This document shows positions 534 to 13,912 of a stretch of DNA of 33,612 nucleotides, piece after piece. Under the pieces are notes generated by a model. That model searched no databases and was not told where the DNA came from. It was given only the letters and a program-made list of their open reading frames with translations. Position numbers and translations under genes: made by a program. Source of the DNA: Candidatus Cloacimonadota bacterium (GTDB lineage Bacteria > Cloacimonadota > Cloacimonadia > Cloacimonadales > TCS61); NCBI GenBank assembly GCA_021157525.1, contig JAGGWK010000084.1, forward strand, positions 1-33,612. Reading direction: 5' to 3'. Within the stretch, counting starts at the first letter, position 1; every line of letters starts with the position of its first letter.

Positions 534-575
534 GTGATGGCTATCGCCCAAGTGTTCACCACAGGGGAGGTAGCG

Positions 576-1409
576 ATGAAGTTTTTTCCGATCATCATTT
601 TGCTGTTTATTTTGGCATCTTGTATGCCCCAAACCACCGATACGTCGTGCCCACGCTATATTGTCACATCCCCGGAATTGGCTGAAATCCTCTATGAACT
701 GGGTGCATCGGATGGCATCGTTGGCGTGACCGCCGAATGCTCTTGGCCTGCCCGTTTCGATTCCCTCACCAAGGTTGGTACTTTCGGCAGTATTGACATC
801 GAAACCCTGATGTCTCTGCATCCTACCCACGTATTTACCAGCAAACTGGAGCAGCAGGCTCTGGGTGCTGAGTTGCAGAAACTCGGCATTCCGGTGTATG
901 CCTTCTATCCTTCCACACTTCGTGGTCTTTACGAAGTTATCGATTCTCTGGCCATTCTCACTCAGCATCAGCAGCAGGGGCATCAGCTGGTAGGCAGGAT
1001 GCAGTCAGCCATCGATTCGTTGCAGCATTTAAATGATCTGCGCAGTTCACCAAAGCCCCGGGTGTATGTGGAGATTTATGGAAATCCGGTGATGAGCGTC
1101 TCCGATGAATCCTTTGTAGGACAGCTCATCGATTTGGCCGGAGGTGAAAATATTTTTGAAACCTTGCCACGGGATTACAGTCGGGTGAATCCGGAAAAGG
1201 TGGTGGCGGCGGCACCTGATGTGATGATAATTACCTACCCCGGTGTCACGGTGGCATCCATCTTGGAGCGCAAAGGCTGGGGAAACATTCCGGCGGTAAA
1301 GCAAAAGCGCATTTTTACCATCGATGATATAAATCCCGATTTGATTTTACGGGCCACACCCCGTTGCATATCCGGCATCAAAATGCTGCAGAGGGCTTTT
1401 TATGAATAG
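576..1409 (+). CDS. btuF: Cobalamin ABC transporter substrate-binding lipoprotein
   Basis: This is a 277-residue periplasmic-binding protein of the BtuF/FhuD fold. In the family it captures corrinoid released from the outer-membrane receptor and delivers it to the BtuC permease. The start at 576 is chosen because GGGGAGGTAG lies just before it and it gives a clean lipoprotein signal peptide ending in LASC. An earlier in-frame ATG at 534 would destroy the signal peptide. The mature protein has the family's opening block, with conserved stretches such as SPELAEILYELG and a C-terminal lobe containing SRVNPEKVVAAAPDVMI. The gene overlaps btuC by 8 nt and follows a cobalamin riboswitch, which fixes the substrate better than the protein sequence alone. 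Without the riboswitch, heme or siderophore binding would be equally plausible. Confidence 0.9.
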   Translation: MKFFPIIILLFILASCMPQTTDTSCPRYIVTSPELAEILYELGASDGIVGVTAECSWPARFDSLTKVGTFGSIDIETLMSLHPTHVFTSKLEQQALGAELQKLGIPVYAFYPSTLRGLYEVIDSLAILTQHQQQGHQLVGRMQSAIDSLQHLNDLRSSPKPRVYVEIYGNPVMSVSDESFVGQLIDLAGGENIFETLPRDYSRVNPEKVVAAAPDVMIITYPGVTVASILERKGWGNIPAVKQKRIFTIDDINPDLILRATPRCISGIKMLQRAFYE

Positions 1410-2325
1410 CCAATCCTGGAAAATTTGCGGACTTTGTGCCGGCTTTTTGGCCATTTCCGCACTGTATTTGTTCTATGATGTGGCGGATTTCTCCATCCTT
1501 ATGTCATTGCGCTTTCCCCGCTTTTTGCTGGCATTGCTGGCTGGGGGTGTGTTGGCCGGTGTGGGTTACGTGTTTCAGATTATGCTCAATAATCCCTTGG
1601 CAGAGCCCTACATCCTGGGAGTTTCTTCCGGTGCGGCCTTCGGCGGTATTTTGGCATCGGTAAGCGGTATGTTACTTTTGATGCCGGTATTTGGCTTCGC
1701 CGGTGCTCTGCTCACCATGACCGCTGTGTGGCTGCTGGCCCATGTGGGAGGGGAGTTTTCTACCACCCGACTGTTGCTGGCTGGCATCATCATCGGCTTC
1801 TTTTTCTCGGCACTCATATCACTGATGATGTACTTTAATCAACAGGATATTTCGGCCATCCTCACCATATTAATGGGAAATCTGGGACGCATTTTCACCC
1901 GCAACGAGTGGAGCATTTTCCTGGGAGTTTTTGCAATATCAATCGGATTGCTGGTCTATCTTTACTTCATCACTCGCCAACTGCTGGTACTCACCACCGG
2001 CGAACTGGTGGCTGGCAGTATGGGGATAAATGTCAAAACCCTGCGATTGCAGATTTTTATTATTTGCTCCATTCTCACCGGGATGACGGTGGCCTATGCG
2101 GGGATTATCGGTTTTGTAGGATTGGTGGTCCCACACATCCTGCGCATGCTGATAAAAAGTAACAGCGCAAAACTGGTACCTCTCAGTGTGATTGGCGGGG
2201 CGATGTTTTTGCTGGTGTGTGACTTTATCGCCATGCATATAGCCAGTGTGGAAATTCCTGTAGGCATCATCACATCTTTTATAGGATGTCCCTTTTTCAT
2301 CTTCGTCATGGCCCGGGCAAAATGA
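1402..2325 (+). CDS. btuC: Cobalamin ABC transporter permease, FecCD family
   Basis: This is a 307-residue, very hydrophobic protein of the BtuC/FecCD permease family, which forms the inner-membrane channel as a homodimer. Diagnostic stretches are RFPRFLLALLAGGVLAGVGY near the N terminus, NPLAEPYILGVSSGAAFGG, and GIIGFVGLVVPHILRML in the C-terminal half, the loop that contacts the ATPase. It is somewhat shorter than the usual 320-350 residues, mainly at the N terminus. Its start overlaps the end of btuF by 8 nt, implying translational coupling. The matching ATPase is not the next gene but lies 2.4 kb away, beyond the opposite-strand isc genes. Confidence 0.92.
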   Translation: MNSQSWKICGLCAGFLAISALYLFYDVADFSILMSLRFPRFLLALLAGGVLAGVGYVFQIMLNNPLAEPYILGVSSGAAFGGILASVSGMLLLMPVFGFAGALLTMTAVWLLAHVGGEFSTTRLLLAGIIIGFFFSALISLMMYFNQQDISAILTILMGNLGRIFTRNEWSIFLGVFAISIGLLVYLYFITRQLLVLTTGELVAGSMGINVKTLRLQIFIICSILTGMTVAYAGIIGFVGLVVPHILRMLIKSNSAKLVPLSVIGGAMFLLVCDFIAMHIASVEIPVGIITSFIGCPFFIFVMARAK

Positions 2326-2486: not shown

Positions 2487-3107
2487 CTACAGGGTTACGA
2501 TCACTTTGGTGATTTCGGGGAATTGCTTCAGATGTTCACGAATCTCTTCGGCGATATTTTCCCGATATTGATCAAAGGAAGGAACATCCACATCTACTGT
2601 GGCAACGCCTTCTTTAAATCCCACATACTTTACCATCTTCAGGCTCACGATATCTTCTCCCACTTTGGGATAGATCACCTGTTTCAGTTCTTTGACGATG
2701 GTGAGTTTACTGAAGGCTTCGGCTTTTGCCAATCCATGGCTGATCTCATACTCTTTTATGGCTTTGCGCAGCGTATCCACGGCAAGAACCGAACAGTGCA
2801 TCTTGGCTGGTGGCAATCCATCCAGCTCTTCAGCTGCTTCTTTCCAAGTTACCTGCTTCGCATCTTCCAGGGTTTTTCCCTTGGCCATATCGGTGATGAT
2901 GGATGCTGTTGCGATATTGGATGCGCAACCGTAAGACTGGAATCCAATGTCTTCGATGACAAGGGTTTTTGGGTTTATCTTGAGGTCGATAGAAACCTGA
3001 TCGCCGCAGGCTGGCGAGCCTTCAGTAGCGGAGATATCAGGGTTTTCCAACTTCCCGATGTTGTGTGGGTTCATAAAATGGTCTAAGACCTTCTGTGAAT
3101 ATTTCAT
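2487..3107 (-). CDS. iscU: IscU-type Fe-S scaffold fused to a DUF59/MIP18-like domain
   Basis: This 206-residue protein has two parts. Residues 1-125 are an IscU/NifU-N scaffold, on which [2Fe-2S] clusters are built. The three cluster cysteines C34 (ACGD), C61 (YGCASNIATAS) and C105 (HCSVLA) and the conserved D36 are present. Residues about 138-206 match the DUF59/FeS_assembly_P pattern (PKVGEDIVSLKMV, then VATVDVDVPS and a terminal EITKVIVTL). That domain occurs in SufT, PaaD, MIP18 and at the N terminus of some Mrp/ApbC carriers and helps deliver Fe-S clusters. Standard IscU is about 128 residues, so the extra 70 residues are a real fusion. The gene follows iscS by 3 nt with its ribosome binding site inside the iscS end. 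The DUF59 domain lacks the cysteine sometimes seen in SufT-like proteins. Confidence 0.9.
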   Translation of the reverse strand: MKYSQKVLDHFMNPHNIGKLENPDISATEGSPACGDQVSIDLKINPKTLVIEDIGFQSYGCASNIATASIITDMAKGKTLEDAKQVTWKEAAEELDGLPPAKMHCSVLAVDTLRKAIKEYEISHGLAKAEAFSKLTIVKELKQVIYPKVGEDIVSLKMVKYVGFKEGVATVDVDVPSFDQYRENIAEEIREHLKQFPEITKVIVTL

Positions 3108-3110
3108 CTC

Positions 3111-4286
3111 TTACTCCTCATTATATAATGGACTTCTTTTGCGTAATTCTATCACGACTTCGGCCAGTTTCTCTACCAGAAAGTCGATCTCTTCACGGGT
3201 ATTGAATTTGCTCAGGGTAAACTTCAATGAGCCGTGGGATTGCACGTGGGTGCGGCCGATGGCCATGAGTACATAATTGGGGTTGAGCCCTTCGGAAAAG
3301 CAGGCGCTACCGGTGGCAATGGTAATGCCATGGTAATCCATCATCATCATGATGGCCTCTCCTTCGATGTAATCCATGGAGATATTTATGTTGTGTGGCG
3401 CACGTCTGGATGGATCAGCAGGACTGTTGAGCATGGTGTGGGGTATGGTGGTCTGGATGCGTTCCAGCAGATAGCCGGTAAGCTCCCGCAGATAGGCGTT
3501 GTTTTTTTCAAAATCGGCGAATATGAGTTCTACCGCTTTGGCAAAGCCGGCAATGGCAGCTGTGCTGGTGGCGCCGGTTTCCAGCTTGTCCATGCGATTG
3601 ATGCCGTGTTTAACCGGCCCCAAAATGATGCCTTTACGCACATACAGCGCGCCAACTCCTTTTGGCCCATGAATCTTGTGTCCGCTTACCGACATCATGT
3701 CGATGCCGTTGGCATGCACATCGATGGGTAATTTACCGTATGCCTGGCCAGCATCTACGTGCAGAGCAATAGCATGATCTGCCTGGTTGAGGATCTCACG
3801 TATCCTGGCCAGAGGCTGGATAGTTCCGATGGTATGGTTTACCAGAGTGGTCATCATCAATATGGTTTCTGGCCGGATGGCAGCTTCCAATTCTTGCAGA
3901 TTAATCACTCCCTCGGCATCGGCTGAGAGATAGGTAACGTCAAAGCCGCTATCCTCAAAAAATGCTGCATTAGTGAGGATATCCGGGTAATCCACCACCG
4001 AACAAATAATATGTGTACCCTTGGCGGCGTTAGCCGAAAGATAGCCCTTGATGGCCAGATTGTTTGCCGATGTGCCACCGCTGGTGAAGTGAATTTCTTC
4101 ATCTTCGGCTCCCATAGATGCGGCAACAATATGCTTAAATGCGGCTATATCTTCTTCCAATTGGGTGCCGGTGGAAATGAAATGTTCCGGCAGATAGTAC
4201 TTTTCGGTAAGATACGGCATCATGGCTTCTATCACCGCCGGGTCTGGCTTGGTGGTTAGACAGTTGTTCATGTAAATCCGTTTCAT
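3111..4286 (-). CDS. iscS: Cysteine desulfurase-like protein (IscS/NifS family), divergent active site
   Basis: This is a 391-residue fold-type I PLP enzyme that by family removes sulfur from cysteine and passes it to the IscU scaffold encoded next to it. It keeps the PLP lysine K204 (SGHK), D178 and Q181 (DAGQA), and the persulfide cysteine C329 (TGSACFSEGLNPNYVL). By-eye alignment to E. coli IscS shows several changes. The ring-stacking histidine of TEHKAVL is tyrosine here (Y100 in VDYPDIL), the arginine of RSGT is glutamate in LETGA, and the C-terminal SSIRF arginine is lysine in GSLKF. The N terminus reads NNCLTTKPDP, with a cysteine where many family members have alanine. It overlaps rrf2 by 4 nt. 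It is either a distinct desulfurase subfamily or an enzyme with altered substrate use. Confidence 0.85.
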   Translation of the reverse strand: MKRIYMNNCLTTKPDPAVIEAMMPYLTEKYYLPEHFISTGTQLEEDIAAFKHIVAASMGAEDEEIHFTSGGTSANNLAIKGYLSANAAKGTHIICSVVDYPDILTNAAFFEDSGFDVTYLSADAEGVINLQELEAAIRPETILMMTTLVNHTIGTIQPLARIREILNQADHAIALHVDAGQAYGKLPIDVHANGIDMMSVSGHKIHGPKGVGALYVRKGIILGPVKHGINRMDKLETGATSTAAIAGFAKAVELIFADFEKNNAYLRELTGYLLERIQTTIPHTMLNSPADPSRRAPHNINISMDYIEGEAIMMMMDYHGITIATGSACFSEGLNPNYVLMAIGRTHVQSHGSLKFTLSKFNTREEIDFLVEKLAEVVIELRKRSPLYNEE

Positions 4287-4705
4287 GCATTCTCCTCTAT
4301 TTTTTCTAAGATTGTATCTAAGGTTATCGAGCTGAAATAGTTATCCAGGTGTTCTTTGATTTCGACCCACATTATGCTGAATCCGCAGGGATCGCCGCAA
4401 CAGTACTCCAGGGTCTCCTTTTCGGTATCGCAGTAGGTATAATTGAAATTCTCATCCACCGCTGCCATGATATCTTTAAGGGAAATATCCTTGTTAGGCC
4501 GTTCCAGCTTATAGCCCCCATGGGCGCCATGGACGCTGCTGATAATCCCCTTTTTTTTCAGCTTGCGGAACAGCTGTTCGATATATTTTGGTGGTAGGGT
4601 TTGCCGTTCACAAATCTGAGCCACCGAGATCGGACTATCCTGGCCATGGGCAGCCAATTCTGCCAGTGCCCGTACAGCGTATCCGGTCTTTGTAGATATA
4701 TGCAT
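4283..4705 (-). CDS. Rrf2/IscR-family transcriptional regulator
   Basis: This 140-residue winged-helix repressor has the Rrf2 signature: an N-terminal STKTGYAVRALAELA helix, a recognition helix region LPPKYIEQLFRKLKKKGI, and the wing motif HGAHGGYKL. The C-terminal half holds C92, C102, C103 and C107, the region where IscR binds a [2Fe-2S] cluster through three cysteines and a histidine. The order CX9CCX3C differs from E. coli IscR, and the fourth ligand is unclear. It is first in an rrf2-iscS-iscU operon with a strong GGAGGTGAT site before the start, and is likely to autoregulate it in response to Fe-S status. The 54-nt divergent gap to btuD may also place btuD under its influence. Confidence 0.88.
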   Translation of the reverse strand: MHISTKTGYAVRALAELAAHGQDSPISVAQICERQTLPPKYIEQLFRKLKKKGIISSVHGAHGGYKLERPNKDISLKDIMAAVDENFNYTYCDTEKETLEYCCGDPCGFSIMWVEIKEHLDNYFSSITLDTILEKIEENA

Positions 4706-4759
4706 ATCACCTCCATTGGGGATAACATAGTATTTTAGTAGGAATTGACAAGGGAAAAT

Positions 4760-5563
4760 ATGAATAATGATTTAAAACCGCTCCTGGAGAGCGTTGACGT
4801 GGTATCTGGTTACCATCAAAAACCGGTGCTGAAGGGAGTTTCTCTGCCCTTTTACCCGGGAGAGTTTGTAGCCATCCTGGGGCCAAACGGAGCGGGGAAA
4901 TCGACCTTGCTCAAGGTGCTGTTGGGCTCTCTTTCACCCCAGCAGGGAGAAGTTCGCCTGGATGGAAAAGCCCTTGCATCCTGGGATGCAAAAGCCAGAG
5001 CCCGGCGCATGGCCTATATCCCCCAGGATTTTACTCTGCAATTTGACTATACGGTGCGGGATTTTGTGCTGATGGGCCGCATCACGTACCTGAAGTGGTG
5101 GGCGGCATATTCTGCTCAAGATGCAGAAATCTGTGAAGCGGTGATGGATGAGCTGGATCTTCACCAATACGCCGATACCCTGATTTCCCAGCTTTCCGGG
5201 GGAGAGCGTCAGCGGGTTTCTATAGCCCGTGCCCTGGCCCAGCAAACCGATATTATCCTGATGGATGAAGCCTTTGCCAACTTGGATATCAACCACCAGA
5301 TTGAGCTGATGCAAATACTCTACCGCATCCATAAATCCCGAAGAAAATGCATCGTGATGATCTCTCATAACATCAATCTGGCGGCGGAATATTGTCAGCG
5401 CATCATTATGTTGCGGGATGGCTCGGTGCTGGCAGATGGCACGCCAGATGATGTGATACAGACCCGGAATCTGCGTGCTCTGTACGACACGCCTCTCACC
5501 ATTTTACCCCATCCCACATCGGGGCGGCCGGTGGTGATTTATCCCGAGATGCCCCATGAATAA
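4760..5563 (+). CDS. btuD: Cobalamin ABC transporter ATP-binding protein
   Basis: This 267-residue ABC ATPase energises the BtuC permease. Visible motifs are Walker A GPNGAGKST (41-49), Q-loop PQD (88-90), signature LSGGERQR (145-152), Walker B IILMDE (165-170) and H-loop H203. The ATG at 4760 is chosen; AAGGGA lies 4 nt before it. An in-frame TTG at 4745 would only add five residues and has no spaced ribosome binding site. It overlaps the receptor gene by 8 nt. Unlike btuF-btuC it has no visible riboswitch in front, only a short divergent gap shared with rrf2, so the two halves of the transporter may be controlled differently. Confidence 0.9.
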   Translation: MNNDLKPLLESVDVVSGYHQKPVLKGVSLPFYPGEFVAILGPNGAGKSTLLKVLLGSLSPQQGEVRLDGKALASWDAKARARRMAYIPQDFTLQFDYTVRDFVLMGRITYLKWWAAYSAQDAEICEAVMDELDLHQYADTLISQLSGGERQRVSIARALAQQTDIILMDEAFANLDINHQIELMQILYRIHKSRRKCIVMISHNINLAAEYCQRIIMLRDGSVLADGTPDDVIQTRNLRALYDTPLTILPHPTSGRPVVIYPEMPHE

Positions 5564-7706
5564 TCTGTGGTCACTGGCAATTCTATTGCTGCTGGCATCC
5601 AACCTCTGTGGACTTGATATTGCCGGTAAGGTAATTTCTCCCACCGGGGAAGGAATTGCCGGTGTGGTGGTGGCAGGTGAAAAAACTGCCGTTATGACCA
5701 ACGCTCAGGGATTTTTCCGCTTGAAGCGTCTCTCTCCGGCAGATACGTTGTTGTTTTATAAATACGGATATCAACGGCAACGGATTGGAGCGGCGGTATG
5801 TCCATCCAGAGTAACATTACGGCAGGAAGCCATTCCCATCGATGGCATCTCGGTGGACGCCGCCACCGAGGAAGCGGTGCGGCTGGATGTACCGGGGAAA
5901 ACCACGATCCGGGTGAATGATGATGCCGGCTCTCTGGCTGCTGTGCTGAAAAGCAATGCGCAAATTTCCCTCAAGGGCCAATCCTTACCTGGACGCAGTA
6001 ACACCATTTCTCTCAGCGGCCACGATGCTCGGCACACGCTGGTTTTGCTGGATGGCATTCCACTGAACATGAATGGCAAGGCCTATGACATCTCTGCCAT
6101 CCCGGCTGAAATGATCGCCGAAGTAGAGGTGGTTCCTGCCGGCAGCTCGGCCTATCTGGGGGCTGGCGCAATTGGCGGAGCGATAAATCTTATCACAAAA
6201 AAAACGGTTCCCAATACCGTTCTCCAGTTCACATCAAAGACCACTGCCGGCTCCTTCGGTGCGGTTGGCCAAAGTTTTCTGGCATCCAGACAAAGCCCAA
6301 TCTGGGGTGCGCAAGCCTCCATCGGTTTGAAAAAAGCAAAAAACGATTTTACCTACACCGATCCGCTGGATGCAGCAGCCGATGAAAAACGGCGCACCAA
6401 TAACGATGCAGAAAATCTGGATGCCCTGTGGAAGCTCAATTTTCCCCGGGTGTTGGCCGCGGAGTATCAGGGCAGTTATCGGCATTACGAAAAAGGAGTT
6501 CCCGGTTATATCGGCCAAATCGGGCTGTTCCAGGATGCACGACTGAAGGGCGGGGTGCGGCGGCATCAGTTGCGAATGAGCACGCAAAAACAGTGGTTCG
6601 GTACACAGATCTCCGGATTTTGCTCTGATGAAGAGAGCACGTATCGCAATGGCCAGAATGACAGCGGGGACAAAACGTCCTTTTCCCGAGATGGCGCCAA
6701 AGCAACGATTTACGCTGATGTGAATGGTTGGGGACGTGTGACCCTGGGTGGTGAATATGGCGTGCAGCGATTTGCCTGCAAAAAGCCATCATCGCCACTG
6801 TTGTCCATCGATAAAGTGTGGTTACAGACGGTGGCACCCTTTGGTAAGATGCAGCTTCGGCATGGATTCGGACCCTTTTGGCTTTCCCTGAAAACAGCTC
6901 TGCGTCGAGATGCTATCAGCCGATCTGATACGTTGCAATTTGCCGATGCACCATCGTGGTTTGCCCAGGTGGCTCTGGAGTACGAAGGATTGTTTCGTCA
7001 TCGCATCGGCGGCAGTATGAGCCGTTCTTACAGCATTCCCTCCTTTTACGATTTATATTGGCAGGGGGGGAATGTGGCCATGGGAAATCCGTATCTATTA
7101 CCGGAAACCGCACATTCCCATACTCTTTTTTATCAGGCAACTTGGGGAGAACAACAGATTTCAGCAACCTGGCGGGATGATGAGATTGATGATCTCATTT
7201 ACTGGTATCGCTCTATCAGTGGCTGGAAACCCGGCAATATCGCCGCCTGCGATCTCAGCTCATTCAACATGTCTATCACCTTGCATCCCTGTTTGTGGAG
7301 CAGTATTGGCATGAACTGGATGCGGGCAAAATCAGCCGATCGATCCCGCCTTCCGGACGGTTCTCCGGCAAATACCTACGGTCTGGAACTGCCCTACCAT
7401 CCATCATCGCAAACCGTGGTATGGGCCGAATTGCATCCAGGCAAAATGACGCTGAAATGCACCTATCGCCGCACCGGTTCTCAATGGCCGCTTAGGTGGC
7501 ACAGCTGGGGGAAAATGCCAGCCTACGAGCTCTTTGATATTCAGGGTTCATACAGATTTCAGGTTTCGTCTGAATGGAGAATATTGCTGGTTGCAGCGGT
7601 CAATAATGTGCTGGATGCAGAATATCAGAGCTACCCGTTGGATCCGGCCCCGGGGCGAAATTTCACCCTGGGATGTACGATAGAATTCGATAAAATGGGA
7701 GGATAA
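5556..7706 (+). CDS. btuB: TonB-dependent outer-membrane receptor, probable cobalamin receptor
   Basis: This 716-residue outer-membrane protein starts with a signal peptide (residues 1-20). A carboxypeptidase-regulatory-like beta-sandwich follows (about 20-90, IAGKVISPTGEGIAGVVVAG), as is common in Bacteroidetes-type receptors. Next come a plug domain (about 120-220, with VLLDGIPLN and GAIGGAINLITKK) and a 22-strand-type barrel. In the family the plug contacts TonB and the barrel admits a large ligand. Its place between btuD, which it overlaps by 8 nt, and a secreted propeller argues for corrinoid rather than siderophore. The C terminus (EFDKMGG) does not end in the usual aromatic residue, though an F lies close. 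No TonB, ExbB or ExbD is encoded in the window. Confidence 0.88.
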   Translation: MNNLWSLAILLLLASNLCGLDIAGKVISPTGEGIAGVVVAGEKTAVMTNAQGFFRLKRLSPADTLLFYKYGYQRQRIGAAVCPSRVTLRQEAIPIDGISVDAATEEAVRLDVPGKTTIRVNDDAGSLAAVLKSNAQISLKGQSLPGRSNTISLSGHDARHTLVLLDGIPLNMNGKAYDISAIPAEMIAEVEVVPAGSSAYLGAGAIGGAINLITKKTVPNTVLQFTSKTTAGSFGAVGQSFLASRQSPIWGAQASIGLKKAKNDFTYTDPLDAAADEKRRTNNDAENLDALWKLNFPRVLAAEYQGSYRHYEKGVPGYIGQIGLFQDARLKGGVRRHQLRMSTQKQWFGTQISGFCSDEESTYRNGQNDSGDKTSFSRDGAKATIYADVNGWGRVTLGGEYGVQRFACKKPSSPLLSIDKVWLQTVAPFGKMQLRHGFGPFWLSLKTALRRDAISRSDTLQFADAPSWFAQVALEYEGLFRHRIGGSMSRSYSIPSFYDLYWQGGNVAMGNPYLLPETAHSHTLFYQATWGEQQISATWRDDEIDDLIYWYRSISGWKPGNIAACDLSSFNMSITLHPCLWSSIGMNWMRAKSADRSRLPDGSPANTYGLELPYHPSSQTVVWAELHPGKMTLKCTYRRTGSQWPLRWHSWGKMPAYELFDIQGSYRFQVSSEWRILLVAAVNNVLDAEYQSYPLDPAPGRNFTLGCTIEFDKMGG

Positions 7707-9098
7707 ATGAAAAAAGTAGAAGTGTTATTGTTTATGATGTCGGCGGTTTTGCTGTTGCATGGAGCCAGCGCCTTTGTGGTAAATTCCAATAGCCAGACCC
7801 TGAGTAAAATCGATCTGGACAGCGGAATGGTGGATAATGACTTTGCCCTTTTGGGTCAGGTACCGGGAACTGCGCCAAACAAGATGGCCATTACCGAAGC
7901 CTTTGCCTATGTGGTAGTTACTTACGAAAACGTTGTGCAAAAGATTGCCCTGGATGGCAGTGGCAGCAGCTTTATCTCTTTGGAAGACAGTGCATTGCCC
8001 AACGATATCGCCTATGCCGACGGCTTTTTGTATGTAACCGGTAACGGCAGTAACCGCTGTTATAAAGTTGATTGTGCCACCGACCAGGTGATCGGGCAGG
8101 TGGCTGTGGGAACGGCGCCCCAAGGATTGGTGGTTTATGATGACCATCTGCTGGTGGCAAATACGGGTTTTGATGTAGCCACTTACACTTACGAGCCAGG
8201 AACCGTCTCGGTGATTTCTCTTGCCGATCTTATGGTGGAATCAGTTCAAAGCACGGCCACGAATCCTGCCGATTTTGCCCTGGTTGGCGATGCTATTCAC
8301 GTTATCTGTACAGGGGATTATGTCACCGAATTCGGTGCCGTCACCGTGATAAACGGCCAAACCCTGCAGACGGAAGAAACTTTTGATCTGGGTGGTTCGC
8401 CAAACAGCATCTCCTATGATGGCGCAAACACCGTGTATTGCGGCAACGCCTGGCCTGCTGGTGTATACACCTATGATGCATTCAGCCATGACGTGATCTC
8501 CACACCCGACGACGGGATATTTGTGGGGGGCAACGATGTGCAAGTGAACGATGGTACTTTGGCGGTGATCGATGCTATGGACTATATCCAAAATTCTCAC
8601 GCCCGGATTTATTCCTTGGCCGATCAGCAGCTTTTGGCAGATTACGAGGTTGGGGTTGGCGCCACAGATATTGTTTTTAGTCTGGATGGCAGTGGTGTTC
8701 ATAACTTGCCGCCGGCTATTACTGCGCAGTTGAATAATTTTCCCAATCCATTCAAGCCATCCGGCACTGGCCGCAGTGCAGCAACCACTATCTATTTCGA
8801 AACCACGAATCAGCACGAAACAGCACAAATAGAGATCTATAATATTCGTGGGCAAAAGGTGAAACAACTTGAAATTATCAATGACAAATTATCAGGAGAT
8901 TTGTCATCTCGACCGCAGTGGACTTGTGCGGCTCCATTCCGGTCTAATGAAGGAATGGAGAGTAGAAAGCTCTCTTACTCCATCACCTGGGATGGCACCG
9001 ACAGCAGTCATCAGCTGGTGGCATCGGGACTCTATTTTTATCAGCTTAAACTGGATGGCAGGGCAGTGGCCCAAAGCAGAATGATGATTATCAAATAA
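7707..9098 (+). CDS. Secreted beta-propeller (BtuG-like candidate) with C-terminal sorting domain
   Basis: This 463-residue protein has a signal peptide (1-22, ending GASA) and YncE/surface-layer-type propeller blades over about 23-335 (repeats such as DGFLYVTGNGSNRCYKVD and GAVTVINGQTL). Residues 341-463 form an FPNPF...TTIYF...IYNIRGQKVK...WDGTDS...ASGLYFYQL domain. That domain is the FlgD-like/type IX secretion-style C-terminal domain common in the FCB group. It starts immediately after the TonB receptor stop. In Bacteroides the B12-capturing BtuG lipoproteins are propellers encoded beside btuB; this protein would be an analogue held at the surface by a sorting domain rather than a lipid, since there is no cysteine at the cleavage site. 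Residues about 393-423 are encoded by an inserted repeat. Family is confident; B12 binding is an inference. Confidence 0.8.
   Translation: MKKVEVLLFMMSAVLLLHGASAFVVNSNSQTLSKIDLDSGMVDNDFALLGQVPGTAPNKMAITEAFAYVVVTYENVVQKIALDGSGSSFISLEDSALPNDIAYADGFLYVTGNGSNRCYKVDCATDQVIGQVAVGTAPQGLVVYDDHLLVANTGFDVATYTYEPGTVSVISLADLMVESVQSTATNPADFALVGDAIHVICTGDYVTEFGAVTVINGQTLQTEETFDLGGSPNSISYDGANTVYCGNAWPAGVYTYDAFSHDVISTPDDGIFVGGNDVQVNDGTLAVIDAMDYIQNSHARIYSLADQQLLADYEVGVGATDIVFSLDGSGVHNLPPAITAQLNNFPNPFKPSGTGRSAATTIYFETTNQHETAQIEIYNIRGQKVKQLEIINDKLSGDLSSRPQWTCAAPFRSNEGMESRKLSYSITWDGTDSSHQLVASGLYFYQLKLDGRAVAQSRMMIIK
8881..8980 (+). repeat. Small hairpin-rich repeat inserted in frame in the propeller gene
   Basis: Three hairpins follow one another: ATGACAAAT/ATTTGTCAT (8881-8889 and 8899-8907), CTCCATTCC/GGAATGGAG (8932-8940 and 8952-8960), and GAGAG/CTCTC (8958-8962 and 8970-8974). 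The segment shares the core GTGGACTTGTGC followed by a hairpin and GAGTAG-like end with copies near 13846-13912 and 33418-33520. It stays in frame and adds roughly 25-30 residues to a loop that is normally short in this sorting domain. Confidence 0.7.
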
Positions 9099-12930: not shown

Positions 12931-13758
12931 TCACAATTCCAGTGAGAGGTCGTAGATTCTGTTTTTGCGGGCACCGGTTTTTTCCTGGATATATCGGACT
13001 GCATCTTTTTGGCGCATTCCTTTCCGGATGCAATCCTGCAACAGTTTTCGCAGTTCATCATCGGTTACGCTGTTCTTGCCAGCGCCGGCTACAACCAACA
13101 CAAACTCACCCTTCAGGGTGATCTGTTCAGGATCCGCCAACAGTTTATCCAGAGTGAGACGATAGTAAGTTTGATGCATCTTGCTCAATTCCCGCCCGAT
13201 GGCGATAGGGCGATTGCCCAGGGCATCCCGTAGCAACTGAGCTGTTTTTATGATGCGATGGGGTGATTCATAAAAAATGAGCGTTATGGGTTGGTTGGCG
13301 ATTTGCTGCAAAAGCTGATCCCGTGATTGTTGTTTGTCGGGTAAAAACCCCAAAAAACAAAAACTGCCGCCATCCAGCCCGGAAGCGACAAAGGCCGGTA
13401 CGAAGGCTGTGGCTCCCGGGAGCACATCCACTTCGATACCCTGAGCGATGGCTTCTTTTACCACCACCGCCGCCGGGTCGCTGATTCCCGGGGTGCCAGC
13501 ATCAGAGATTACCGCCACATCCTCGCCCTGTTGCATCCTGGCCAAAAGCTCCTTGACCCGAGACCGTTCGTTAAATTTATGGTAGCTCACCATGGGGGTG
13601 GTGATGTGGAAATGTTTGAGCAATTTGCCACTCACCCGGGTATCTTCCGCAGCGATAACGGCTGCATGTTGCAAAACTTCCACCCCCCGATAGGTCATGT
13701 CTTTTAAATTCCCGATGGGCGTGGGCACGATCGAGAGTATTCCTCTTTTCTTTTCCAT
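12931..13758 (-). CDS. rsmI: 16S rRNA (cytidine(1402)-2'-O)-methyltransferase
   Basis: This 275-residue RsmI-type SAM methyltransferase of the tetrapyrrole-methylase fold is expected to methylate C1402 of 16S rRNA. Diagnostic stretches are LSIVPTPIGNLKDMTYR at the N terminus, AAEDTRVSGKLL, VAVISDAGTPGISDPA and YESPHRI. The ATG at 13758 is chosen, giving MEKKRG and the usual family length. The reading frame stays open to 13887, but the extra 43 residues are encoded largely by the small repeat at 13846-13912 and do not resemble RsmI. The ribosome binding site at 13758 is weak, so the start is less certain than the function. It is the first gene of the rsmI-ybaB-recR run. Confidence 0.95.
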   Translation of the reverse strand: MEKKRGILSIVPTPIGNLKDMTYRGVEVLQHAAVIAAEDTRVSGKLLKHFHITTPMVSYHKFNERSRVKELLARMQQGEDVAVISDAGTPGISDPAAVVVKEAIAQGIEVDVLPGATAFVPAFVASGLDGGSFCFLGFLPDKQQSRDQLLQQIANQPITLIFYESPHRIIKTAQLLRDALGNRPIAIGRELSKMHQTYYRLTLDKLLADPEQITLKGEFVLVVAGAGKNSVTDDELRKLLQDCIRKGMRQKDAVRYIQEKTGARKNRIYDLSLEL

Positions 13759-13845
13759 GATGTCATCTGGCTCGGATGTGTCATCTGGCACAAGAGAAAA
13801 ATGATCAGTGGACTTTGGAAGGGGGTAAACAGTGGAGCTAGATCC

Positions 13846-13912
13846 TTTCATTTCGACTAAGCGAAGCGCCTGGAGACTTGTGCGCACGTTGAGTGTGGCT
13901 CAATGGGAGTAG
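13846..13912 (+). repeat. Dispersed small repeat, copy upstream of rsmI
   Basis: The segment reads TTTCATTTCGACTAAGCGAAG, then CTGGAGACTTGTGCGCACG, a TTGAG/CTCAA hairpin (13889-13893 and 13899-13903) and TGGGAGTAG. Its second half matches the reverse complement of 33419-33456 at 30 of 38 positions, most differences lying in the loop. It separates the divergent rsmI and histidine-kinase genes and creates the artificial N-terminal extension of the rsmI frame. Confidence 0.7.

Follow-up and report, generated by a model that had tools for sequence, protein, structure and literature searches.

A BtuG-like propeller with a type IX secretion sorting domain in a B12 uptake locus of Cloacimonadota

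The window, by which we mean the whole stretch of 33,612 nucleotides of Candidatus Cloacimonadota DNA that was analysed, contains a vitamin B12 uptake locus in which a gene for a secreted beta-propeller directly follows one for a TonB-dependent receptor, raising the question of whether these bacteria capture corrinoids at their surface with a relative of BtuG and, if so, how such a protein is held there. BtuG has been described as a lipoprotein exclusive to Bacteroidetes, a distribution based on BlastP at 1e-10 in 313 gut genomes (Wexler 2018, PMC6143338). The evidence assembled below argues that the window protein is probably a BtuG-type corrinoid-capture propeller exported through the type IX secretion system (T9SS) rather than as a surface lipoprotein.

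The features of the locus are collected in Table 1. The propeller reading frame is intact and begins one base past the stop of the btuB-like frame, with a Shine-Dalgarno-like GGGAGG just 5' of its ATG. The original prediction had placed a secreted propeller straight after a TonB receptor inside a B12 uptake locus, and the reading frame, the riboswitch and the neighbouring genes agree with this placement. The top NCBIfam model for the receptor is TIGR01779 (TonB-B12), at 88 bits far under its cut-off of 600, while the top models for the ABC ATPase are those of heme and corrinoid ATPases, both below cut-off. The locus is split, with nifU, nifS and rrf2 on the opposite strand separating btuF-btuC from btuD-btuB-propeller; the whole set (btuF, btuC, nifU, nifS, rrf2, btuD, btuB, propeller) was counted by eye in 28 of 103 Cloacimonadota stretches. 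Such a cassette stands between btuFC and btuD-btuB-propeller across much of Cloacimonadota, and the presence of Fe-S genes within a B12 locus is puzzling.

Table 1. Features of the B12 uptake locus and of the propeller gene in the window
Feature	Coordinates	Strand	Remarks
Cobalamin riboswitch RF00174	341..514	+	Heads the locus; 96.3 bits against a gathering score of 31.5
btuF-type periplasmic binding protein	534..1409	+	PF01497, 126.6 bits; BtuF and IsdE models below cut-off
btuC-type permease	1402..2325	+	PF01032, 254 bits; top NCBIfam model BtuC, below cut-off
nifU-nifS-Rrf2-regulator cassette	2487..4705	-	Inside the split B12 locus; same order in relatives
btuD-type ABC ATPase	4745..5563	+	PF00005, 130.5 bits
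btuB-like TonB-dependent receptor	5556..7706	+	PF00593 and PF07715
BtuG-like propeller gene, T9SS-tailed, 463 aa	7707..9098	+	ATG start
Signal peptide, residues 1-22	7707..7772	+	Ends GASA; read by eye from the translation
Seven-bladed beta-propeller, residues 23-335	7773..8711	+	AlphaFold2 pLDDT 95.5, pTM 0.92
Tyr293 codon	8583..8585	+	Aligns by eye with BtuG2 Tyr335, which touches the adenosyl group
T9SS type A C-terminal sorting domain, residues ~341-463	8727..9095	+	TIGR04183; fold nearest PorU
In-frame sorting-domain insert	8878..8969	+	Inverted-repeat-rich DNA; loop predicted at low confidence

The genome from which the window comes encodes a methylmalonyl-CoA mutase (1202 bits), a corrinoid protein and a B12 radical-SAM-type protein, and a search of it for corrin-ring methylases found none, the only two TP-methylases both scoring as RsmI; the cell must therefore scavenge B12. 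The occurrence of two RsmI-like rRNA methylases in a single genome (window 12931-13887, minus strand, and G000:C79:18104-18700) is a separate observation.

To what family does the propeller belong? AlphaFold2, given an alignment (A3) of 83 relatives from named genomes, predicted residues 20-335 as a 28-strand, seven-bladed propeller, with the confidence values of Table 1. When this model was compared with the PDB by Foldseek, ranks 1-15 were all BtuG1, BtuG2 or BtuG3 chains (TM to the model 0.77-0.83), followed by the archaeal S-layer propeller 1l0q in 16th place, YncE in 39th and XusB in 40th (TM 0.66). VIA-align gave Z scores of 36.5 for 1l0q, 35.0 for BtuG1, 33.6 for BtuG2 and 33.2 for gluconolactonase, with identities of 20-22% for BtuG and 1l0q and 12-13% for gluconolactonase. 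Since 1l0q and gluconolactonase score like BtuG by this method, the fold alone does not prove kinship to BtuG.

Sequence profiles were therefore weighed alongside the fold. The two patterns used in the scan behind A3 demand particular stretches, which are for that reason partly bound to look invariant in A3; free of this bias is A1, a profile of 100 Cloacimonadota propellers (three fragments among the 103, L103, L110 and L120, were left out of A1 and A5). Against the PDB, A1 matches 20 sequences, headed by 1l0q with 119.7 bits, a sum over repeats, below which stand twelve BtuG-type chains at 78-88 bits and then hydrazine synthase, Lp49 and YncE (37.6 bits). PDB codes were assigned to BtuG1, 2 and 3 from the data section of PMC10404256 and the record titles. 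A second profile, A4, was made from 14 Bacteroidota lipoproteins picked from the A3-profile matches, 13 of which have a btuB-like frame within 1.5 kb (the exception is L262); its 12 top PDB matches are all BtuG, at 210-229 bits, and to judge by these scores the A4 lipoproteins are BtuG. Across the 124 Cloacimonadota genomes A4 finds matches in 104, and in 101 of these the propeller is the top match; in the other three the propeller is cut by a contig end (G063, G071) or the contig ends just past btuB (G112). The propeller gene is the sole A4 match in the window's genome, at 109.7 bits, and a profile-profile alignment with A4 spans 293 columns with E = 2e-52 and 20% identity. The curated models for YncE (an equivalog; 15 bits of 400) and PQQ (36.9 of 287.3) stay far under their cut-offs, which rules out a generic YncE protein.

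The original prediction of a BtuG-like propeller, together with the structural comparison and the test of its grouping that it proposed, is thus borne out: BtuG chains fill the first fifteen Foldseek ranks, the BtuG profile finds this gene and no other in the genome, YncE trails far behind, and the profiles and the predicted fold together mark a true relative of BtuG. By its domain, as far as profiles can assign it, the protein is a member of the BtuG family; it is not a BtuG lipoprotein as defined, because a lipobox was looked for and not found. With BtuG1, BtuG2 and BtuG3 of Bacteroides thetaiotaomicron (8BLW, 8BMX, 8OKV; PMC6143338, PMC10404256) it shares a seven-bladed acidic propeller, a gene next to btuB, a cobalamin riboswitch and full-length profile homology. 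Unlike BtuG, a lipoprotein with a lipobox and an export signal, the window protein carries a Sec signal peptide and a T9SS sorting domain, its identity to BtuG is ~20%, and most of the named pocket aromatics differ.

Acidity is among the shared traits. The net charge of residues 23-335 is -34; that of the A1 propellers is negative in 100 of 100 with a median of -23.5, and the median is -25 in 27 others outside A1. For BtuG2 a charge of -18e has been reported and electrostatic capture proposed (PMC10404256), and the strong acidity found here is in line with capture of that type. BtuG2 also has 13 hydrogen-bonding residues; the pocket comparison covered the five aromatics named in PMC10404256. 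In the alignments, read by eye, adding 46 to a 3DSM_A residue number gives that of BtuG2, which puts the five on the right letters. At the BtuG2 Tyr335 position, Tyr293 in the window, W, Y or F occurs in 100 of 100 relatives. Of these five aromatics, the positions of Trp194, Tyr239, Trp272 and Tyr316 are without conservation in the Cloacimonadota propellers, and Trp272 is by eye also unconserved in the BtuG-like lipoproteins of A4. The best-conserved loops (LG..N, SNP, VG..PEG, NPQ and GG.PG) may be the counterparts of the BtuG2 Trp272 loop. By analogy with BtuG, the propeller would bind corrinoids.

Conservation of the gene and of its surroundings bears on the same question. The propeller is present in 103 of 124 Cloacimonadota genomes and in 66 of the 70 good ones, nearly always as a single copy; cobalamin riboswitches occur in 101 and btuB-like genes in 105 of the 124. 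For 49 of the 103 propellers a btuB-like gene lies no more than 400 bp upstream, and 29 of these 49 also have a riboswitch ahead of them within 12 kb; a cobalamin riboswitch immediately precedes 38, one of which is in the btuB-linked group too; and for two others a riboswitch lies ahead within 12 kb, leaving 15 without any such linkage. A script accordingly counted linkage to btuB or to a riboswitch in 88 of the 103 genomes, and seven of the 15 others are explained by btuB at 403-515 bp (G069, G070, G071), by a btuB fragment directly upstream (G075, G097, G108) or by a riboswitch cut by the contig start (G007). Co-occurrence with btuB, proposed as a check in the original prediction, speaks in its favour. 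For three more propellers (G055, G063, G072) the gene start is no more than 111 bases away from the end of the contig, and the real exceptions are five: G001, G003, G005, G008 and G050. Counted from the other side, 38 of the 117 riboswitch matches in the phylum sit directly before a propeller gene. A chance neighbour is ruled out, because the propeller is conserved in 103 of the 124 genomes, with its btuB or riboswitch linkage across the phylum. Own riboswitches not accompanied by btuB within 400 bp are found for 37 of the 103 propellers, and 33 of the 103 have their own riboswitch and no btuB-like match upstream on the same strand of the contig, so that gene order does not call for a lid paired one-to-one with BtuB. 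Among the exceptions, G001, G003, G005 and G008, of one genus, keep the propeller and show no cobalamin riboswitch, either near the gene or genome-wide in a filtered search.

How, then, does the protein leave the cell? Residues 1-30 contain no cysteine at all, as the original prediction had held for the lipobox cysteine, and a lipoprotein reading of the window's propeller is ruled out on this ground; among the 103 relatives a lipobox-like motif is absent from 98, the other five having a loosely fitting cysteine inside the hydrophobic stretch. The first propeller strand follows the signal peptide directly. At the other end, the tail scores 23.1 bits with TIGR04183 (T9SS type A; cut-off 23), and its predicted fold has seven strands and PorU as first Foldseek match, both of which agree with the FCB-type C-terminal sorting domain that had been proposed. 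TIGR04183 is found in 98 of 100 full-length Cloacimonadota relatives and Pfam Por_Secre_tail in 94 of 100 (E <= 0.01), and the window tail has 58 matches in its own genome, one of them the gene itself. The T9SS translocon protein SprA is found in 107 of the 124 Cloacimonadota genomes and in 70 of the 70 good ones, a search of 14 control genomes giving no match; PorU-like proteins are present in the window's genome, below the curated cut-off. That a T9SS may be present in Cloacimonadota has been noted before, and T9SS cargoes are cleaved by PorU and then either released or coupled to anionic LPS (PMC11285876), so that a T9SS tail could mean release as well as surface attachment. The window protein shares with type A cargo (TIGR04183; CTDs of the PorU/PorZ/RgpB type) a seven-strand C-terminal domain with a Lys-containing last strand, a Sec/SPI signal peptide, and SprA and PorU-like genes in the same genome. 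Export by the T9SS is predicted from the tail and these genes, and the protein may be retained on the cell.

In contrast to ordinary type A cargo, the window's sorting domain bears a palindromic-repeat insert of ~25-30 residues, in frame, whose DNA holds two perfect 9-nt inverted repeats (8881-8889/8899-8907 and 8932-8940/8952-8960). In an alignment of the window tail with 34 of 65 tails (A6), four of the 34 others (L171, L178, L182, L228) have a different palindromic-repeat-like insert at the same loop, which seems to be a hot spot tolerating repeat insertion. A 12-base motif of the window's insert, searched among the collected loci, was found only at its own place, and a 19-base pattern occurs once in the window; these searches show no repeat family for the genome.

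Is such a propeller confined to Cloacimonadota? A scan of 84,980 named species gave 117 relatives, 80 of which were analysed, and 24 of these 80 loci lie, to go by record titles, outside the phylum, in Zixiibacteriota, WOR-3, GN15, LCP-89, Calditrichota, Melioribacteraceae, Neomarinimicrobiota and other FCB or other bacteria. A btuB-like gene stands next to the propeller or about one gene away in 23 of the 24, the exception (L235) starting at a contig end, and 15 of the 24 have a cobalamin riboswitch. One locus, L166 (JABMPU010000105.1), is titled Armatimonadetes, lies on the same contig as G070:C85, is counted as Cloacimonadota and is probably mislabelled. Melioribacteraceae are placed here in Bacteroidota as GTDB broadly defines that phylum. 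Among 395 of its genomes that were sampled, 117 have a match at E <= 1e-20, and a btuB-like frame lies within the 1.5 kb flank at 25 of the 30 best loci. Besides Bacteroidota, at least seven more FCB-type lineages thus have the propeller, and both T9SS-tailed and lipid-anchored forms are found in other FCB lineages and in Bacteroidota in the wide sense. Of the original expectation, a B12-capture propeller outside Bacteroidetes with another mode of attachment, one part stands, in that the relative exists and is T9SS-tailed, but it is not limited to Cloacimonadota. Neither a T9SS-borne BtuG nor a BtuG from beyond Bacteroidetes is described in the papers searched; DUF4465 proteins that bind B12 have already been published from outside that group (PMC13398666). 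These DUF4465 (BtuJ) proteins, B12 binders from several bacterial clades often encoded beside B12 transport genes, have a jelly-roll fold (PMC12751083) unrelated to the propeller.

Attachment varies among these lineages. Lipoprotein propellers occur in Calditrichia, in Neomarinimicrobiota and as the first of a tandem pair in WOR-3-type loci; T9SS-tailed ones outside Cloacimonadota occur in Zixiibacteriota, Calditrichaceae, Melioribacteraceae and some Bacteroidota; and dockerin-like tails are found in Zixiibacteriota and GN15, Pfam Dockerin_1 matching three of the five such proteins scanned, one above cut-off. A tree of 80 propellers was built by a quick method with SH-aLRT from the window, 17 Cloacimonadota, 27 other propellers and 35 Bacteroidota frames, ten rows carrying no anchor label, most of them visibly lipoproteins or cut off. 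On it the three attachment labels need 5 changes, against 28.8 in shuffles, the dockerin-like-tailed propellers are one clade, and a T9SS-tailed group of four lies inside a lipoprotein clade, on a tree with no outgroup and hence no direction. As read from the sequences, the same propeller comes with one of three exchanged attachment modules: a lipid anchor, a T9SS tail or a dockerin-like tail. The dockerin-like-tailed propellers (L203, L209, L214, L215, L216, L220, L223, L234, L235, L241) are mostly from Zixiibacteriota. Two propellers in tandem, the one anchored by lipid and the other ending in a T9SS-type tail, stand in the WOR-3-type loci L195 4711-7233, L197 4672-7236 and L218 4768-7236; the Bacteroidota loci L249, L250, L256, L264, L270 and L272 likewise pair a lipid-anchored propeller with one whose tail is T9SS-type or cut off, and the tandems of both kinds of loci are mostly behind btuB or a riboswitch.

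These features suggest a model in which a shortage of corrinoids would permit expression of the locus through the cobalamin riboswitch. The propeller would be exported by Sec and then moved over the outer membrane by virtue of its C-terminal sorting domain, to be held at the surface, probably after attachment by a PorU-type sortase. There, the acidic propeller would capture B12-type cofactors and, presumably docking on BtuB, pass them on to the BtuB-like TonB receptor of the preceding gene, BtuF-BtuC-BtuD completing import for a cell unable to make corrin rings. Very likely, by analogy, the propeller works like BtuG.

The strongest competitor, though an unlikely one, accepts corrinoid binding and disputes retention: the sorting domain would be cut off after export and the propeller freed as a corrinophore that returns corrinoid to BtuB or denies it to neighbours. 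The release of T9SS cargoes that are not coupled to anionic LPS (PMC11285876) would allow this, as would the 37 propellers with their own riboswitch away from btuB; the tandem pairs of L195, L197 and L218 look as if one propeller stays and one leaves, and BtuG added from outside quenches corrinoid sharing (PMC13374852). Against it, 49 of the 103 propellers stand directly behind btuB, like a BtuG lid, and PorU-like sortases are present in the genome. We entertain, just as tentatively, a wider scheme in which BtuG would be an ancient FCB-wide corrinoid-capture module whose attachment (lipid anchor, T9SS or dockerin-like) was freely swapped; its T9SS forms, often with their own riboswitch, would act as bacterial equivalents of intrinsic factor or HasA, corrinophores that are secreted and set free, in some loci handing their load to a second, lipid-anchored propeller on BtuB.

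Two further readings deny corrinoid binding and are less probable still. It is improbable that the protein is a generic surface propeller of the YVTN or S-layer type, B12-regulated or structural for BtuB: the leading place of 1l0q as single profile match and in VIA-align, the mostly unconserved binding aromatics and the precedent of BtuK2, which belongs to a B12 locus and is known not to bind (PMC12751083), fit such a protein, but BtuG models outscore YncE models by far, the acidity is strong, and the Tyr335 position, like the loops that probably line the pocket, belongs to the best-conserved parts. Most remote is a capture protein for siderophore or heme serving an iron TonB receptor, on the pattern of XusB (PMC13142918), which likewise is a surface propeller of seven blades next to a TonB receptor and comes 40th in the Foldseek ranking. 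Neighbouring Rrf2 and nifS genes would fit iron control, and the highest-scoring model for the ABC ATPase is a heme one. XusB is nevertheless a siderophore-binding DUF4374 lipoprotein structurally more distant from the window propeller than BtuG (TM ~0.8 for the latter), DUF4374 is absent among the Pfam matches listed for the propeller, and a cobalamin riboswitch immediately precedes the gene in 38 of the 103 genomes, while in a further 31 one is found on the same strand no more than 12 kb upstream; on this riboswitch linkage we rejected a XusB-type siderophore binder.

The reading we prefer, a BtuG-type capture propeller exported by the T9SS, suggests that BtuG-style B12 capture is older and more widespread than had been thought. 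If the propellers bind corrinoids, uncultured anaerobes living in digesters, sediments and seeps would also compete for B12 by means of dedicated binders, at the surface or secreted, and vitamin piracy would be added to the roles of the type IX secretion system. For corrinoid quenching the family is a source of natural BtuG variants, and it makes it possible to test directly whether a B12 carrier that has been released can serve a bacterium.
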